A stretch of DNA of 33,378 nt from Anaerolinea sp. (GTDB lineage: Bacteria; Chloroflexota; Anaerolineae; Anaerolineales; Villigracilaceae): contig DYNS01000003.1 of the NCBI GenBank assembly GCA_020720965.1, positions 1 to 33,378 on the forward strand, given 5' to 3'. Below, piece by piece: positions 3,929-15,318 of the stretch. The notes under the pieces are model-generated. The model saw only the letters and a program-made list of their open reading frames with translations. It made no database searches and was not told the DNA's origin. The first letter of the stretch is position 1. Each line of letters starts with the position of its first letter. A program made the position numbers and the translations under genes.

Positions 3929-5005
3929 ATGACTCTTAACCTCCCCCTCCTTGTAGACGCTCATCAAGACCTTGCTTGGAATATGCTCAGTTTTGGGCGA
4001 GATTACACCCGCCCGGTGCAGGAAACCCGCCTGCGCGAGAAAGATACTTTTGTTGTGCCGAACAACGGCGACACGGTTCTAAGCTGGCAGGAATATCAAC
4101 GCGGGCGGGTTGCCTTGGTGTTTGCCACCCTATTCGCTGCGCCCTGGCGCACCCGCGCCGGGGATTGGGACAGCCAGGTGTACAAGACTCCCCAAGAGGC
4201 GCACCGCCTGTACCACGCCCAGTTGGATGCCTACGAGCGGTTGTTTGATGAACACCCGGAGAAATTTACCCCGGTTCGCTCTGCTGCTGAACTGAATCGC
4301 CTGCTTTCGGAAGGCTCCTCCGCTACCGGTTTGCTGACTTTGATGGAAGGCGCGGATGCCGTGCTGAATCCACGTGAGTTGGAGGAATGGTGGCAGCGCG
4401 GGGTGAGGGTGATTGGTCCAGCCTGGGTTGGCACTCGTTATAGCGGCGGCACGCGCGAGCCGGGTTCTCTTACAGCGGAGGGACGGGTTCTTTTGCAGAG
4501 TATGGCAGAGCGCGGATTTTTGCTGGATTTGAGTCACATGGCTTGGGAAGCCGCCCTGGAAGCCCTCGACCGCTATGAGGGGGCTTTGCTTGCCAGCCAT
4601 TCCAACCCGTTAAAGATGGTAAAAAACGGTACCAGTAACCGTTTTTTGACGGATGAAATTATAGACGGGATTGTGGCGAGGGATGGGGTTATTGGGATTG
4701 TTCCGTTTAACCGGTTTTTGAATCAGAACTGGCAAAATGAGAACCCCCGCACCGATTGCCCGCTGGAGATGGTGGCGGCGCACCTGGATTATATTTGTCA
4801 GCGTGCCGGGGATGCCCGCCATGTGGGCTTTGGCACGGATTTTGACGGCGGTTTTGGCTTGCAGCACATCCCCGCCGGGTTGGATACGATTGCAGATTTG
4901 CATCTGCTAATTCCCATTTTGCAAGGCTACGGCTATTCCGCCGCCGATATTGACTTGATTTTTGGCGGCAACTGGCTTTCCTTGCTGAGAAAGGCGCTGC
5001 CCTGA
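3929..5005 (+). CDS. Membrane dipeptidase (peptidase family M19)
   Basis: LLVDAHQDLAWNML, LLDLSHM, LASHSN, HVGFGTDFDGGFG motifs; start placed at 3929 (MTLNLPLLVDAHQD). Confidence 0.85.
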   Translation: MTLNLPLLVDAHQDLAWNMLSFGRDYTRPVQETRLREKDTFVVPNNGDTVLSWQEYQRGRVALVFATLFAAPWRTRAGDWDSQVYKTPQEAHRLYHAQLDAYERLFDEHPEKFTPVRSAAELNRLLSEGSSATGLLTLMEGADAVLNPRELEEWWQRGVRVIGPAWVGTRYSGGTREPGSLTAEGRVLLQSMAERGFLLDLSHMAWEAALEALDRYEGALLASHSNPLKMVKNGTSNRFLTDEIIDGIVARDGVIGIVPFNRFLNQNWQNENPRTDCPLEMVAAHLDYICQRAGDARHVGFGTDFDGGFGLQHIPAGLDTIADLHLLIPILQGYGYSAADIDLIFGGNWLSLLRKALP

Positions 5006-9455: not shown

Positions 9456-9785
9456 ATGGCAACAGACGAAGACTTTATTCGCTTTGTGGCGGAACAAATC
9501 TCACCCGCCGGGCGTGTGCGTTACCGCAAAATGTTCGGTGAATACGCTCTCTACCTGGACGAGAAAGTGATTGCGCTTGTGTGTGACAATCAGCTTTTTC
9601 TAAAACCTACTGGTGCGGGCAAAACCCTGCTTGGCGATTCCATTACCTATGCCCCGCCTTACCCTGGCGCGAAACCTTACTTTTTGTTGGAATTTTTGGA
9701 AGACGGCGATTTTTTGGCAGAAGTGGCACAGGCAACCGCCCGCGAGCTGCCTCCTCCCAAGCCCAAAAAGCGAAAAAGCGCCTAA
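9456..9785 (+). CDS. TfoX/Sxy N-terminal domain protein
   Basis: VAEQISPAGRVRYRKMFGEYALYLDEKVIALVCDNQLFLKPT; start at ATG after AAGGAG. Confidence 0.82.
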   Translation: MATDEDFIRFVAEQISPAGRVRYRKMFGEYALYLDEKVIALVCDNQLFLKPTGAGKTLLGDSITYAPPYPGAKPYFLLEFLEDGDFLAEVAQATARELPPPKPKKRKSA

Positions 9786-10921
9786 TAAACTGCCAGGCTG
9801 GGGTCTACCTCCCGCGCCCAGGCATGGATGCCCCCTTGCAGGTTTTTTACCCGGCGGAAGCCTGCCGCCGTTAAGAGACCCACCGCTCGGCTGGAGCGAG
9901 TCCCTGCCCGGCATAGCACGACCATTTCGCGGGCAGAATCCAACTCGGAAAGGCGGGCGGCGAGAGTCCCTAGCGGGATATTCAGCGCCCCCGGCAGGGC
10001 GGAGATTTGCAGTTCGTGTGGCTCGCGCACGTCCAACAGCAGGGGCGCCGAGTCGGTTTGTAAACGGCGGGCAAGTTCTGGGGCGGTAATGTCCCAGTCT
10101 TCCGCGCTGACGGGGTGGTTCTGTCCCGGAACGCCGCAGAAGGCTTCGTAATCTATCAGTTGGGTAATTTGTGGGTTCTCGCCGCAAATGCGGCATTGGG
10201 GGTTTTTTCGCAGGGTTACAAAGTCGAAGGACATATCCAACGCATTGTAGAGCAGCAGCCGCCCTTGCAGGGTGTCTCCGATGCCCAGCAAAATTTTGAG
10301 AGCTTCGGTGGCTTGAATGGAGCCAATAACCCCCGGCAGAACGCCCAGCACGCCGCCTTCGGCGCAGGTCGGCACAAGCCCCGGCGGGGGCGGCTCTGGG
10401 AAGAGGCAGCGGTAGCAGGGACCGGTGCGAGCGTCAAAGACGCTGGCTTGCCCGTCAAAGCGGAAGATGGAGCCGTAAACCAGGGGTTTGCCGAGCAGGA
10501 CGGCAACATCGTTGCTGAGGTAGCGGGTGGGGAAGTTGTCGCTTCCGTCTATCAGCACGTCGTAGTTGGCGGCAATTTGCAGGGCGTTGGCGGAGGTGAA
10601 GGGTTGGTCGTAGGTTTCCACTTTGGCGTCTGGGTTGATGTCCAACATGCGGGCGCGGGCGCTTTCCACTTTGCGTTTGCCCAGGCTGGACATTCCATGC
10701 GCGATTTGGCGCTGCAGGTTGGTTTCTTCCACCACGTCATAATCTAATAGCCCAATGCGCCCCACGCCAGCGGCGGCGAGGTAGAGGGCTATGGGCGAAC
10801 CAAGCCCGCCTGCGCCGATGATGAGGGCAGAGGCGTTGTGTAGTTTTTGCTGCCCTGTCAGCCCCACTTCGGGGATGAGCAGGTGACGGGAGTAACGGAG
10901 GATTTGGTCGTGGGTGAGCAT
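9782..10921 (-). CDS. moeB: MoeB/ThiF-family sulfur-carrier adenylyltransferase with C-terminal rhodanese domain (MoeZ-like)
   Basis: GAGGLGSPIALYLAAAGVGRIGLLDYDVVEETNLQRQ, CxxC pairs, rhodanese loop CRAGTRS. Confidence 0.92.
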   Translation of the reverse strand: MLTHDQILRYSRHLLIPEVGLTGQQKLHNASALIIGAGGLGSPIALYLAAAGVGRIGLLDYDVVEETNLQRQIAHGMSSLGKRKVESARARMLDINPDAKVETYDQPFTSANALQIAANYDVLIDGSDNFPTRYLSNDVAVLLGKPLVYGSIFRFDGQASVFDARTGPCYRCLFPEPPPPGLVPTCAEGGVLGVLPGVIGSIQATEALKILLGIGDTLQGRLLLYNALDMSFDFVTLRKNPQCRICGENPQITQLIDYEAFCGVPGQNHPVSAEDWDITAPELARRLQTDSAPLLLDVREPHELQISALPGALNIPLGTLAARLSELDSAREMVVLCRAGTRSSRAVGLLTAAGFRRVKNLQGGIHAWAREVDPSLAVY

Positions 10922-10935
10922 GATAGGGATAGGGG

Positions 10936-11208
10936 TTAGCCGCCGGTGACGGAGGGGACGATTTTGAGGGTGTCTTCGGGGCGCAGTGGGGTTTGCAGCC
11001 CTTGCAGGGTGCGGATGTTTTCCTGGTTGAGGAAGATGTTAATGTGGCGGCGCAGCCTTCCGGCGGGGTCGAAGAGGTGGGGGGTCATTTGGGGGTATTG
11101 GCTGGTGAGGTGTTGCAGGGCTTCTTGCACGGTTTCGCCTTCCAGCGGGAGTTCGGTTTGGTCTTGCAGGTAATACTTTAGCAGGGCGGGGACGCGGAGG
11201 CGAGGCAT
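10936..11208 (-). CDS. MoaD/ThiS-family ubiquitin-like sulfur carrier protein (possibly CysO-like)
   Basis: 90 aa ending in exposed Gly-Gly (IVPSVTGG); adjacent to MoeZ-like and cys genes. Confidence 0.87.
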   Translation of the reverse strand: MPRLRVPALLKYYLQDQTELPLEGETVQEALQHLTSQYPQMTPHLFDPAGRLRRHINIFLNQENIRTLQGLQTPLRPEDTLKIVPSVTGG

Positions 11209-11228: not shown

Positions 11229-11975
11229 CTAAATCATAAATTCGATGCCGTCCCAGGCATCTTGCACCGGGGCGTGGATGTGATGCGGGTGGGAATGTCC
11301 TTGCACGCGGGTTTCCAGGTCATCCACCCGCGTCATCAAATCCTGAATGGCGGCGGCGAAGACATCCGGTAGGGCGGCGTGGTTCAGGTCGGGGGCATCG
11401 GAGGCGTGATGCGGCTGGGAGCGGCGCACGATTTGGCCCGGCACGCCCACCAGGACGGAGTTTTCTGGCGCGGGCTTTACGATGACGGCATTGGCGCCGA
11501 TGCGGCTATCTGCGCCGATAGTGATGTTGCCCAACACTTTTGCGCCTGCGCCAATCGTCACCCGGTCTCCGATGGTGGGGTGGCGTTTGCCTTTGTTCAG
11601 CGAGGTTCCGCCCAGGGTGACGCCGTGATACAGGGTAACGTCATCGCCTACGATGGCGGTTTCGCCGATGACGACCCCCATGCCATGGTCGATGAAGACT
11701 CTTCGCCCGATTTGGGCGCCGGGGTGAATTTCTATGCCGGTGATGCCCCGCGCCAGTTGAGAAACCCAACGGGCGGGCAGTGTTGCGCCGCGAAGCCAAA
11801 GCCAGCGGCTGATTTTATGCGCCCAAACGGCGTGCAGGCCGGGGTAGAGCAGGGCAATTTCCAGCCCGGAGCGGGCTGCCGGGTCGCGTTGCAGGGCGGA
11901 GGCAATGTCTTCCCGCACGGAGGCGAAGAAGCCCAGGCGCGACAATGTTTGAGGGGTGGGGAGAGTGGTTTCCAT
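11229..11975 (-). CDS. cysE: Serine O-acetyltransferase
   Basis: Hexapeptide repeats: [46 protein letters not shown]. Confidence 0.93.
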
Positions 11976-11990: not shown

Positions 11991-12923
11991 TTAATCCGCC
12001 AGGTGGGCGTACAGGGCGGAGGAGAGGTAACGTTCGCCAAACGAGGGAATGATGACGACAAACATCTTGCCCGCGTTTTGGGGGCGGCTGGCAGCCTGGA
12101 GCGCCGCCCAGGTTGCCGCGCCGGAGGAGATTCCGGTGAGGATGCCTTCCTCCCTTGCCAGGCGGCGGGCGGTTTCCAGGGCGTTTTCATCCGTCACGCG
12201 GATAATTTCGTCATAAATTTGGGTGTTTAGCGCCTTTGGCACAAACCCCGCCCCAATTCCCTGAATTTTATGTGCGCCTTTTTGCCCGCCGGAAAGGACG
12301 GGGGAGGCATCTGGCTCTACCGCAATGACCTGTACCGATGCTTTCAGCGCCTTCAAGGCCTCCCCGGTCCCGGTGATGGTCCCGCCCGTGCCGACTCCAG
12401 CGACCAGGGCATTCACCTGCCCTTCGGTGTCTCGCCAAATTTCCAGGGCGGTGCTGCGGCGGTGAATGGCTGGGTTTGCCGGGTTTTCAAATTGCTGGGG
12501 CATAAAATAGGTTTGCGGGTCGCTGGCAACCAGTTCTTCGGCACGGCGGATGGCTCCGCCCATGCCTTCGGCGCCGGGGGTTAGCACAAGTTCGGCACCC
12601 TAGGCGCGGAGCAACATGCGGCGTTCTTTGCTCATTGTCTCCGGCATGAACAAGATGCACCGGTAGCCTTTGGCGGCGGCGACCATTGCCAGGGCGATGC
12701 CGGTGTTACCGCTGGTGGGTTCCACAATCACCCGATTGGGGGTTAGGGAGCCGCTTTGTTCGGCGGCTTCAATCATCGCCAAGCCAATGCGGTCTTTTAC
12801 GCTTTTGGCAGGGTTGAAGAATTCCAGTTTGAGCAGGATGGTGGCGGCGGTGGGGTTCATTCGGTTCAGGCGCACGAGGGGGGTGTTGCCCACGAGGGCG
12901 GTAATGTTGGAGGCGATATTCAT
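11991..12923 (-). pseudogene. cysK: Cysteine synthase (O-acetylserine sulfhydrylase-like), reading frame interrupted by in-frame TAG at 12600-12602
   Basis: N-part [22 protein letters not shown]...[11 protein letters not shown]...ERRMLLRA, then TAG, then [17 protein letters not shown]...[16 protein letters not shown] in the same frame. Confidence 0.85.
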
Positions 12924-12945
12924 ATTGAAAGTCCTTTTTTGGTAT

Positions 12946-13057
12946 AAAAAAACGTCACCCAAACCCACAGCAGGCAAAATAAAAGAACGGCGCAAAATCG
13001 CCATGTGGGGTCACATGCGGGATTCGTGCGCCGTTCTTCGGGGGTCGGGTGACGTTT
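12946..13057 (-). terminator. Nested-stem attenuator terminator in the cysK 5' leader
   Basis: Outer 11-bp perfect stem 12950-12960/13047-13057 followed by T7; inner 12-bp perfect stem 12983-12994/13027-13038 followed by TTTTATTTT; apical 6-bp stem 13002-13007/13012-13017. Confidence 0.7.
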
Positions 13058-13070
13058 GAGGGGCGAAGAT

Positions 13071-13093
13071 GCGGCGGTTACGAACCCCGCCGC
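13071..13093 (-). promoter_or_regulatory. GC-rich stem-loop overlapping the leader peptide stop codon
   Basis: GCGGCGG ... CCGCCGC with TAA in the loop on the minus strand. Confidence 0.6.
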
Positions 13094-13119
13094 AGACAGG
13101 AGCAAAGTAAGGTGAACAT
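13078..13119 (-). CDS. Putative cysteine leader peptide MFTLLCSCLRRGS
   Basis: Codons ATG TTC ACC TTA CTT TGC TCC TGT CTG CGG CGG GGT TCG TAA; 7 nt after the -10 box; upstream of stem-loops and cysK. Confidence 0.6.
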   Translation of the reverse strand: MFTLLCSCLRRGS

Positions 13120-13126
13120 AGGCGTT

Positions 13127-13154
13127 ATTTTACCGGTAGATGGGGAAATGTCAA
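13127..13154 (-). promoter_or_regulatory. Sigma70-type promoter of the cys operon (TTGACA - 16 nt - TAAAAT)
   Basis: Reverse complement of 13149-13154 is TTGACA; reverse complement of 13127-13132 is TAAAAT. Confidence 0.75.
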
Positions 13155-13200
13155 GGAAATTAGATAATTTTAGTAGAAATTTATATTTTCTCAGGCGCAT

Positions 13201-13229
13201 AAAAAAGCCGGGGATTTCTCCCCGGCTTT
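13201..13229 (-). terminator. Rho-independent terminator of the EF-G-like gene
   Basis: AAAGCCGGGGA...TCCCCGGCTTT with T6 on the minus strand. Confidence 0.85.
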
Positions 13230-13233
13230 GGTT

Positions 13234-15318
13234 TTACTCTTCTTTCTTCAATTCCATTTCTTTCTTGTGCGCTTCCATAATTGGCTGCGCCAGGTGTTGA
13301 GGTACAACGTCGTAGTGGTCGTGTTCCATTGTGAAGTAGCCGCGCCCGCCGGTGAGAGAGCGGAGTTGGGTGGTGTAGCGGGTCATTTCTGCCATTGGCA
13401 CATGGGCTACAACGGTGGTGTTGCCGCGTTCCGCTTCGGTGCCTTGCACGCGCCCGCGCCGGGTGTTCATATCGCCCATCACATCGCCCAGGTGACTATC
13501 CGGTACGGTGACGCGGACGGACATAATCGGCTCGAAGAGGACGGGTCCGGCATCGTGTACGGCGAGTTTGAAGGCTTCGCGCCCGGCGGTTTCAAAGGCG
13601 ACCGGTTTAGAGTCTACGGGGTGTTCTTTGCCGTCATACACAATGACTTTGACGTTGCTCATGGGGTAGCCTGCAAATACGCCTTTTTCCAGCGCGGCGT
13701 GGATGCCTTTTTCGATGGGGGGCAGGTAAGAGCGGGAGAGGTTCATGCCTACGAGCTCATCGGTAAATTCAAAGTCGGCTTCGTGGTAGGGTTCAATTCG
13801 CAGATGAACTTCGCCGAATTGCCCAGAGCCGCCGCTTTGCTTTTTGTGGCGATATTGGGCGCTGGCTTTGCGGGTGATGCCCTCCCGGTACGGGATTTTG
13901 GGTTCTTCGATGAGGATGCCAACCTGGAACTTGGTCTGGGCGCGGTGAATGACGACGTCGATGTGCTGGTCGCCCATGCCTTGCAGAATGGTCTGCCCGG
14001 TGGCATGTTCGTTGTGCCAGGAGAGGGTCATATCCTCTTCGCAAAGGCGGGTGAGAGTGGGTGAGATTTTGGCGGCGTCTGCCTGGGTTTTGGGGTGAAC
14101 GGCAACCCGGTAGAGGGCGGCGGGGTATTGGGGAGCGGGGACGATAATCGGGTGGTTTTTCTCGCAGAGGGTGTCGCCGGTGACGGTGACGCTGAGTTTG
14201 GTAACGGTGGCAATATCGCCTGCGTGGGCAACTTTTACGGGGAGTGATTCTTTGCCGCGCTGAATGTGTAAGCCTGCCATGCGCTCGTCTGCGCCTTTGG
14301 TTTGGTTCCATAGATGAACGTCATTATGAATACTGCCAGACATGACCTTGAAGTAGGTCATCTTGCCCACAAAGGGGTCGGCGGTGGTTTTCCAAACGTA
14401 GAGGGCAATGGGACCTTGTTCGCTGTAAGCCAGTTTTTCCTCTTCGCCATTTTTGCCTTGGGCGGCGGTTTGCGGTCGTTCTGCCGGGCTGGGCATCAGG
14501 TCTATGATGGCATTGAGCAGGGGCGCTACGGCTTTTTCGTGTCCTGGGGCAGAGACGAAGACCGGGGCGAAGGTTCCAGCCACGACAACCTCTTTTAGTC
14601 CGCGCAGCAGTTCTTCTTCACTGAGGCTGCCTTGTTCAAAGAACTTTTCCATCAGGGTGTCATCGCCTTCGGCGGCGGCTTCTACCAGCTGCATGTGGGC
14701 TTCTTGGGCGGCTGATTGGTATTCGGCGGGGATGGGAGATGCGGTTTTGCCATCTCCGAGGTAGGCTTTCATGCCAATCAGGTCGATGACCCCGTGAAAG
14801 TCCAGTTTTTCGCCTAGGGGCAGTTGGGCTTTTACAACGCGGGTGCTTGTTCTCTTGGCAAAGTCTTCTATGGCTTCGTAGGCTTTGGCAAAATCAGCAT
14901 TTTCCCTGTCCATTTTGTTGATGACGACAAGGCGGGGCAGTTGAAAGGTGTCGCAGTAGTTCCAGGCTAGTTCTGTGCCAACTTCCACACCGGCAACTGA
15001 GTCGATGAGGACGACTGCGCCATCGGCTACGCTGAGGGCGGAAATCATTTCGCCGATGAAGTCGGTAAAGCCGGGGGCGTCTAATACGTTGACTTTGTGG
15101 TCGCGGTATTCCACTGGCATTACGCTGGTGTAAAGCGAAATTTTGCGGCGAATTTCTTCTTCGTCATAGTCCGAAACAGAACTGCCATCGTCCACTTTAC
15201 CAAGACGGTTGGAGCCGCCGGTAAAATGCAAAAATGCCTCCGACATCATCGTTTTTCCGGCGCCGCCGTGGGCGACCAGTGCGATGTTGCGGAGGTACTC
15301 GGTCGTGTACTCTTTCAT
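13234..15318 (-). CDS. Elongation factor G-like GTPase (EF-G2-type)
   Basis: AHGGAGKTMMSEAFL, NVLDAPGFTDF, VINKMDREN, and EF-G C-terminal domains; noncanonical P-loop AHGGAGKT. Confidence 0.9.
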   Translation of the reverse strand: MKEYTTEYLRNIALVAHGGAGKTMMSEAFLHFTGGSNRLGKVDDGSSVSDYDEEEIRRKISLYTSVMPVEYRDHKVNVLDAPGFTDFIGEMISALSVADGAVVLIDSVAGVEVGTELAWNYCDTFQLPRLVVINKMDRENADFAKAYEAIEDFAKRTSTRVVKAQLPLGEKLDFHGVIDLIGMKAYLGDGKTASPIPAEYQSAAQEAHMQLVEAAAEGDDTLMEKFFEQGSLSEEELLRGLKEVVVAGTFAPVFVSAPGHEKAVAPLLNAIIDLMPSPAERPQTAAQGKNGEEEKLAYSEQGPIALYVWKTTADPFVGKMTYFKVMSGSIHNDVHLWNQTKGADERMAGLHIQRGKESLPVKVAHAGDIATVTKLSVTVTGDTLCEKNHPIIVPAPQYPAALYRVAVHPKTQADAAKISPTLTRLCEEDMTLSWHNEHATGQTILQGMGDQHIDVVIHRAQTKFQVGILIEEPKIPYREGITRKASAQYRHKKQSGGSGQFGEVHLRIEPYHEADFEFTDELVGMNLSRSYLPPIEKGIHAALEKGVFAGYPMSNVKVIVYDGKEHPVDSKPVAFETAGREAFKLAVHDAGPVLFEPIMSVRVTVPDSHLGDVMGDMNTRRGRVQGTEAERGNTTVVAHVPMAEMTRYTTQLRSLTGGRGYFTMEHDHYDVVPQHLAQPIMEAHKKEMELKKEE

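Follow-up and report, generated by a model that had tools for sequence, protein, structure and literature searches.

The cysK-cysE-moaD-moeZ genes of Anaerolinea sp. are very probably controlled by ribosome-mediated transcription attenuation that senses the charging of tRNA-Cys. They lie on the minus strand of the window, the whole stretch of 33,378 nucleotides that was analysed, behind a leader whose comparison with those of relatives shows a conserved reading frame with its cysteine codons, three competing helices that covary, nested terminators and a conserved gene context. An attenuation reading of this kind had been put forward in an original prediction made from the window alone, and it is now supported by the conserved Cys-x-Cys and by the covarying, competing helices. 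These observations suggest that Anaerolineae bacteria sense cysteine shortage by means of a stalled ribosome.

The leader, its distribution and its genes

The cysK leader takes up about 195 nt of the minus strand between an EF-G-like gene (13234-15318), which has a terminator-like hairpin at 13204-13229, and the cysK ATG at 12923, before which stands AAGGAC. A TTGACA hexamer (-35, 13154-13149) is separated by a 16 nt spacer from TAAAAT (-10, 13132-13127), and the leader ATG (13119) follows 7 nt further on; this promoter is as first claimed, and on re-inspection of the sequence the coordinates then given for promoter, ORF, stems and cysK all hold. By motif count alone, neither promoter-like sites (4, with 4.0 expected in shuffles) nor terminator-like sites (14, with 12.1 expected) exceed chance in the region. 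The leader rises above chance because it is conserved: hundreds of genomes carry it ahead of sulfur genes, and its stems covary. A promoter-like pair (score of at least 8 of 12) stands upstream of 73 of 86 leader copies. In the window and its nearest relatives (19 of these 73) the ATG lies 6-10 nt behind the -10 box, so that the message may be leaderless, and the window's own leader transcript is predicted to be leaderless or nearly so. The distance is 11-32 nt in the remaining copies, and the rows printed mostly have no Shine-Dalgarno-like motif.

BLASTN searches of 61 genomes (the window's and 60 relatives) find the leader in 22, the window's included, and the 22 distinct leaders align on TGC-NNN-TGT-N5-GCGGGGTTCGTA or near variants; in 21 of them the first ATG met going upstream shares the frame of these codons, and the remaining one has its in-frame ATG further upstream. 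A first covariance model, built from 20 leaders, detects the leader in 132 of the 150 genomes searched from the window's family and in 26 of its 26 genera. A second, built from 89 leaders, detects it in 173 of 301 genomes of the order, in 27 of 249 genomes of the class (E up to 0.01) and in 28 of 350 genomes sampled from the phylum, all 28 inside the class, with no match in other classes of that sample. Matching genomes mostly carry one to three copies, and the window's genome carries one. A pattern scan of named genomes yielded 59 records, 51 of them labelled Chloroflexota (mostly Anaerolineae or Anaerolineales); the first model matches these 51 and none of the eight others (L085, L088, L092, L099, L104, L105, L114 and L119), which are taken as chance. 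A weak phylum match outside the class (f31, E 9.8e-4) was dropped, the second model giving no match outside the class in a 350-genome sample that may omit the genome concerned. One locus, L084, holds two copies (2433-2573 and 4711-4844) about 2.1 kb apart on the same contig, one before cysK and the other before a cysM-like gene.

In the window the leader is followed on the minus strand by cysK, encoding cysteine synthase A (11991-12923), cysE, encoding serine O-acetyltransferase (11229-11975; TIGR01172 above cut-off), a gene for a MoaD/ThiS-like sulfur carrier (10936-11208) and one for a MoeZ-like adenylyltransferase with a rhodanese domain (9782-10921). Elsewhere, gene classes were assigned by BLASTP to five reference proteins from the loci (cysK and cysE above NCBIfam cut-offs, a cysM relative and a mercaptopyruvate-sulfurtransferase relative below them, and a Pfam DUF4395 protein), and by this measure 83 of the 88 distinct leaders in the second alignment stand directly before a cysM-like gene (40), a rhodanese gene (19), cysK (17), a DUF4395 gene (5) or cysE (2), the other five lying at a locus or contig edge or a run of N. 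The third alignment repeats this, 51 of its 53 copies (an antisense row left out) preceding the same gene classes and the last two a Cys/Met-metabolism PLP enzyme and a sulfur transporter. Wherever the downstream gene is readable it is a cysteine or sulfur gene, in 83 of 83 copies of the one set and 53 of 53 of the other.

A DUF4395 gene is directly behind the leader in seven copies (L097, L111, L130, L056, L071, L184 and L153), with cysK within about 1.1 kb downstream in the five that belong to the second alignment, and this arrangement suggests a role for DUF4395 proteins in sulfur or cysteine metabolism. The MoaD/SAMP1-like carrier and MoeZ-like enzyme of the window (9782-11208) recall CysO/MoeZ, the thiocarboxylate route to cysteine in mycobacteria. 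The window's own cysK has a single in-frame TAG (12602-12600), with the frame intact on both sides and 78% identity to a relative. The genome has no other close cysteine synthase, the rest reaching at most 35% identity, and the in-frame stop counts against the attenuation reading; it may be an error of assembly, a difference between strains or a sign that the gene has recently become a pseudogene while its leader stayed intact.

The leader reading frame and its cysteine codons

The leader ORF (13119-13078, minus strand) has 13 codons, MFTLLCSCLRRGS*, and contains the candidate control codons TGC-TCC-TGT for Cys-Ser-Cys (TGC at 13104-13102, TGT at 13098-13096). The frame and these codons are kept in 141 distinct copies, a subset of all matches made up of 88 copies from the second alignment (found with the first model) and 53 from the third (found with the second model; the antisense row L184:1585-1695:+ is left out of these counts and present in the 54-row stem analysis below). 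TGY-NNN-TGT, encoding Cys-x-Cys, occurs in 141 of 141, and orthologues without cysteine codons, which the original prediction had named as evidence against itself, are not found among them. The first cysteine codon is TGC in 132 copies and TGT in 9, the second is TGT in all 141, and the stop is the ninth codon counting from the first cysteine codon in 126, typically five codons from the second.

Upstream of this pair little but the frame survives. The sequence preceding Cys-x-Cys comes in 122 different forms, unrelated and of variable length, with the in-frame start standing 3 to 16 codons from TGY-NNN-TGT; still, of the 133 copies with an ATG within 60 nt upstream, 130 have the nearest one in frame, the corresponding figure for any TGYNNNTGY in the loci, taken as a control, being 162 of 561. 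Translation is the best explanation for a frame that is kept in spite of a changing N-terminus and a changing distance. Some features count against the attenuation reading: eight of the 141 copies have no ATG within 60 nt, no in-frame ATG was found in the upstream stretch searched for L040 (and L133 lies at a locus edge), and the control region is short, with two cysteine codons and one codon between them. A run of adjacent cysteine codons near the stop is absent, the two being one codon apart in all 141 copies. Additional cysteine codons occur beside the pair in L168, L178 and L182 (CTCMC, CLCC and CSCMC). Two leader peptides (20 and 24 aa) have no NCBIfam match up to E 0.1, most of the peptides being below scannable length.

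Could the peptide itself be the sensor? A Cys-x-Cys peptide that stalls its own ribosome on a thiol, metal or redox signal, and not on uncharged tRNA-Cys, would fit the nearly uniform peptide end C-x-C-x-x-R-G (Arg-Gly at residues 6-7 in 133 of 141, with the variants RV, RE, RD, RS, QG and WG), as well as the keeping of Ser 8 with AGC in three of 88 copies. However, the antiterminator's GCGGGG strand, described below, accounts for Arg-Gly, residues 6-7 do vary, and the N-termini, unrelated and of unequal length, are unlike those of an arrest peptide. With Ser at residue 8 in no more than 90 of 141 copies, an Arg-Gly-Ser peptide signal was rejected as a general feature. Self-stalling by the peptide is thus very improbable, and sensing of tRNA-Cys charging remains the preferred reading.

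The second control codon raises a further possibility, since all 141 copies have UGU there, although TGC is favoured in the downstream genes (205 of 284 cysteine codons). The leader might read the efficiency of UGU decoding besides the charging of tRNA-Cys, one stalled ribosome then integrating cysteine supply and sulfur status on behalf of a sulfur regulon that Anaerolineae share by inheritance. E. coli tRNA-Cys carries a sulfur-containing modification, ms2i6A37, and the idea holds only if UGU decoding needs such a modification of tRNA-Cys; we consider it unlikely. Alternatively, C may be avoided at this position since it could pair with the following GGC.

Competing helices and a proposed mechanism

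The GC-rich stem-loop that had been noticed over the stop codon (S1, 13071-13093, minus strand) pairs GCGGCGG (13093-13087) with CCGCCGC (13077-13071) and is borne out by the alignments. In the first alignment, made without structure from 20 leaders, 92% of its cells are paired, and RNAalifold finds no helix besides it there; three leaders had been left out of this alignment, one as a duplicate (L023, of L018), one for an insertion (L022) and one by choice before aligning (L019). The third alignment (54 rows) gives S1 94% paired cells and double changes in 6 of 7 pairs, and the inner terminator double changes in all 10 pairs, the two helices together showing them in 18 of 20, although the second and third alignments were fitted to S1 and the terminator and their counts therefore lean towards these helices. 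The inner terminator hairpin (12976-13039, minus strand; arms 13039-12982, T-rich tract 12987-12976) consists of the stem AAGAACGGCGCA/TGCGCCGTTCTT followed by TTCTTTTATTTT, and 91.5% of its cells are paired in the first alignment. In L022, and also in L135, a short repeated unit is inserted in the terminator region.

Around this hairpin lies a second, nested terminator (12945-13057, minus strand), in which AAACGTCACCCGA (13057-13045) faces TTGGGTGACGTTT (12962-12950) and a T tract runs to 12945; its stem AAACGTCACCC/GGGTGACGTTT, followed by the T run, reaches 13 bp when extended with G-U pairs. Among 86 of the 88 leaders (L078 and L089 left out of this and of the ribosome-block analysis), the outer stem has at least 7 bp in 83, native pairs outscore swapped pairs in 83, and the stem is followed by at least five Ts within the next ten bases in 74. 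The nested stems with T-rich tracts described from the window alone thus recur, the inner one with covariation. As judged from sequence and fold, intrinsic terminators are present between the leader ORF and the first gene, and since the second hairpin encloses the first, polymerase would meet two chances of termination.

These hairpins also bear on whether the leader acts on transcription at all. The leader ORF could instead govern ribosome access to cysK by translational coupling, as a translation attenuator, and a later paper describes the Mycobacterium smegmatis precedent in these terms in the part cited here (PMC13236596). Such control is highly improbable in the present case, where two intrinsic-terminator-like hairpins with T tracts stand between ORF and cysK and the outer stem keeps its T-rich tail in the 74 leaders just mentioned.

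Transcription attenuation also calls for an alternative to the terminator, and the leader holds a candidate. The original prediction had pointed to a complement between the leader and the terminator arm; this exists, though its length is not 5 nt (CGGCG) but about 22 bp in the predicted fold, in blocks of 11, 5 and 6 bp. The 5' strand (13064-13090, minus strand) consists of GCGGGGTTCGT, CGCCG and TCTTCG, and takes in the last three codons, the stop and the next 14 nt; the 3' strand (13017-13040) consists of CGAAGA, CGGCG and ACGAATCCCGC, the 11 bp block joining GCGGGGTTCGT (13090-13080) to ACGAATCCCGC (13027-13017). At the core of this antiterminator GCGGGG pairs with YYCCGC, and from there the helix continues across the stop codon to reach the terminator's 5' arm. 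No alignment was fitted to the antiterminator, yet its 3' strand overlaps the fitted terminator arm, and in the second alignment (88 distinct leaders) its 15 pairs have 90% paired cells, against 37-47% when slid, and double changes in 8 of 15, none of 500 shuffles reaching as high on any of five measures. The evidence from the first 20 leaders is weaker: double changes appear in only one of the 15 pairs, which 386 of 500 shuffles reach, and further pair types are fewer than in shuffles. Outside the core, the extension is stronger with its native partner than with the average swapped partner in 124 of 134 leaders (-20.7 versus -15.4 kcal/mol; the values are not independent among related leaders). 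This comparison left out eight rows in which no 3' core was called, the antisense L184 row and seven others, and all seven do form the antiterminator helix.

Changes in the core are compensated, as in GCGGAG/CTCCGC (L061), GCGAGGGC/GCCCTCGC (L153) and GCGAGGG/CCCTCGC (L158), and compensatory changes, whose lack the original prediction had likewise named as evidence against it, are found in S1, the terminator and the antiterminator. The opening base of the first cysteine codon lies 14 nt before the start of GCGGGG, and a script scan places GCGGG or CCGGG exactly 5 nt behind the second in 133 of 141 copies. Among the eight exceptions, six keep the distance with an altered core, L187 is shorter by one nucleotide, and L192 has GCGGGG at the usual distance, the scan having picked an earlier CCGGG. 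At L089:2252-2431 extra sequence stands in the loop between the antiterminator strands, both of which are intact. A likeness of GCGGGGTTCG...CGAATCCCGC to a tRNA T arm was rejected because other families hold the pairing with different letters.

Is the RNA rather than the ribosome the sensor? A metabolite-binding riboswitch or a T-box-like sensor of tRNA, with the ORF incidental, would agree with the strong conservation of the RNA, in which GCGGGGTTCGTA is almost invariant within the family, and a terminator/antiterminator switch before a single pathway is riboswitch-like. Yet neither the window nor 17 loci with relatives match any Rfam family, T-box and SAM included, at gathering score, and the three matches found in 12900-13200 at E up to 10 include neither T-box nor SAM, none of them being relevant. 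In other families the GCGGGG core and its neighbours vary by compensation, which argues for conservation of a helix and not of a binding pocket, and the near-invariant part outside the helices is the in-frame TGY-NNN-TGT with its in-frame start. We therefore hold a riboswitch or T-box to be most unlikely, and the attenuation reading places the ribosome at the centre of the switch.

Folding of 86 leaders with a simulated ribosome is consistent with that role. Blocks of 13, 19 and 37 nt, sizes assumed from textbook footprints, stand for a ribosome with the first cysteine codon in the A site, the second cysteine codon in the A site, or the stop codon, and truncated transcripts are those ending before the 3' arm of the terminator. 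With 13 nt blocked, the antiterminator is predicted to form in 86 of 86 truncated transcripts; with 19 nt blocked, its part behind the stop codon does so in 86 of 86 and its core in 29%; with 37 nt blocked, the core forms in 0 of 86 and the terminator in 86 of 86 full transcripts. In these folds, then, stalling at the control codons would free an antiterminator that excludes the terminator. Nevertheless, when 13 nt are blocked in full transcripts, the terminator has a probability above 0.5 in 58% of the 86 leaders (0.97 in the window), so that the switch must be kinetic. Kinetic control is a feature of known attenuators. Without a ribosome, truncated transcripts have the antiterminator core at a probability above 0.5 in 93% and S1 in 7%, and S1 is therefore not a simple thermodynamic default.

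Together, these results lead to a mechanism in which the transcription start, translation, stalling, termination and cysteine as the signal are what we infer. RNA polymerase would start at or next to the leader ATG, with a ribosome following. When charged tRNA-Cys is scarce, the ribosome would stall with UGC (or UGU) in the A site and its leading edge just before GCGGGG. This would leave free the Arg-Gly-Ser-stop codons and the 14 nt behind them, a segment able to pair with the inner terminator's 5' arm and the adjoining CGAAUCCCGC, and with the antiterminator formed, polymerase would reach cysK. A ribosome that arrives at the stop codon would block the antiterminator directly, because the last codons and the stop are part of that helix's 5' strand. 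After ribosome release, or with no ribosome present, S1 would compete with the antiterminator.

Precedents and significance

Among the closest known relatives in kind are the trp-type ribosome-mediated transcription attenuators of Proteobacteria such as the E. coli trp leader, where, in the passages cited from PMC1183508, a short ORF with codons for the product precedes hairpins 1:2, 2:3 and 3:4 and the position of the ribosome decides among them. The Anaerolineae leader would share this plan. Unlike the trp type, it belongs to another phylum, its leader codons are for cysteine and not Trp or His, the window has two nested terminators, and the 5' strand of the window's antiterminator starts inside the ORF and takes in its end. 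Also unlike the trp type, there are only two control codons, the second always UGU. No sequence relation to trp-type attenuators was found. The leader resembles the T-box and S-box (SAM) leaders of Firmicutes in the cis-acting terminator control that it would exert over amino-acid or sulfur genes, and differs from them in having no Rfam match and, at its centre, a translated-looking ORF and not a tRNA- or SAM-binding domain.

The nearest precedent is found in the cysteine leaders of mycobacteria. Short ORFs with cysteine codons before cys genes are described from Mycobacterium, Propionibacterium acnes and Bifidobacterium longum; such ORFs were predicted in Actinobacteria in 2005, "without obvious terminators" (PMC1262725), were seen by ribosome profiling in mycobacteria (PMC4633059), and were afterwards reported to be attenuators that respond to cysteine (Canestrari 2020, cited in PMC9094748 and in PMC13236596). 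The mycobacterial leaders are described as leaderless, as is predicted for the window. The comparison with actinobacteria drawn in the original prediction therefore stands for cysteine leader ORFs in general, but not in detail: as set out in the relevant part of PMC1262725, the actinobacterial leaders have runs of cysteine codons near the stop and no conserved terminator hairpin, whereas those of Anaerolineae have Cys-x-Cys and what appears to be a complete terminator/antiterminator system. By sequence comparison, the Anaerolineae family differs from these leaders in its phylum, its peptide and its full terminator/antiterminator system. No cysteine attenuator in Chloroflexota was described in the literature searched, which excluded most subscription papers.

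If the attenuation reading is true, one inherited leader RNA controls cysteine and sulfur assimilation throughout a class of Chloroflexota that is represented here almost only by metagenome-assembled genomes. It would also mean that cysteine-specific transcription attenuation with a complete terminator/antiterminator switch exists, filling a gap left by the actinobacteria, whose cysteine leaders lack visible terminators according to the part of PMC1262725 cited above. The fixed spacing from the first cysteine codon to the antiterminator makes the model of the ribosome's edge directly testable. New members of the regulon are picked up with the covariance model, which also hints at what some little-known genes do: DUF4395 proteins and a mercaptopyruvate-sulfurtransferase-like rhodanese would, on the same reading, come under the control of cysteine.
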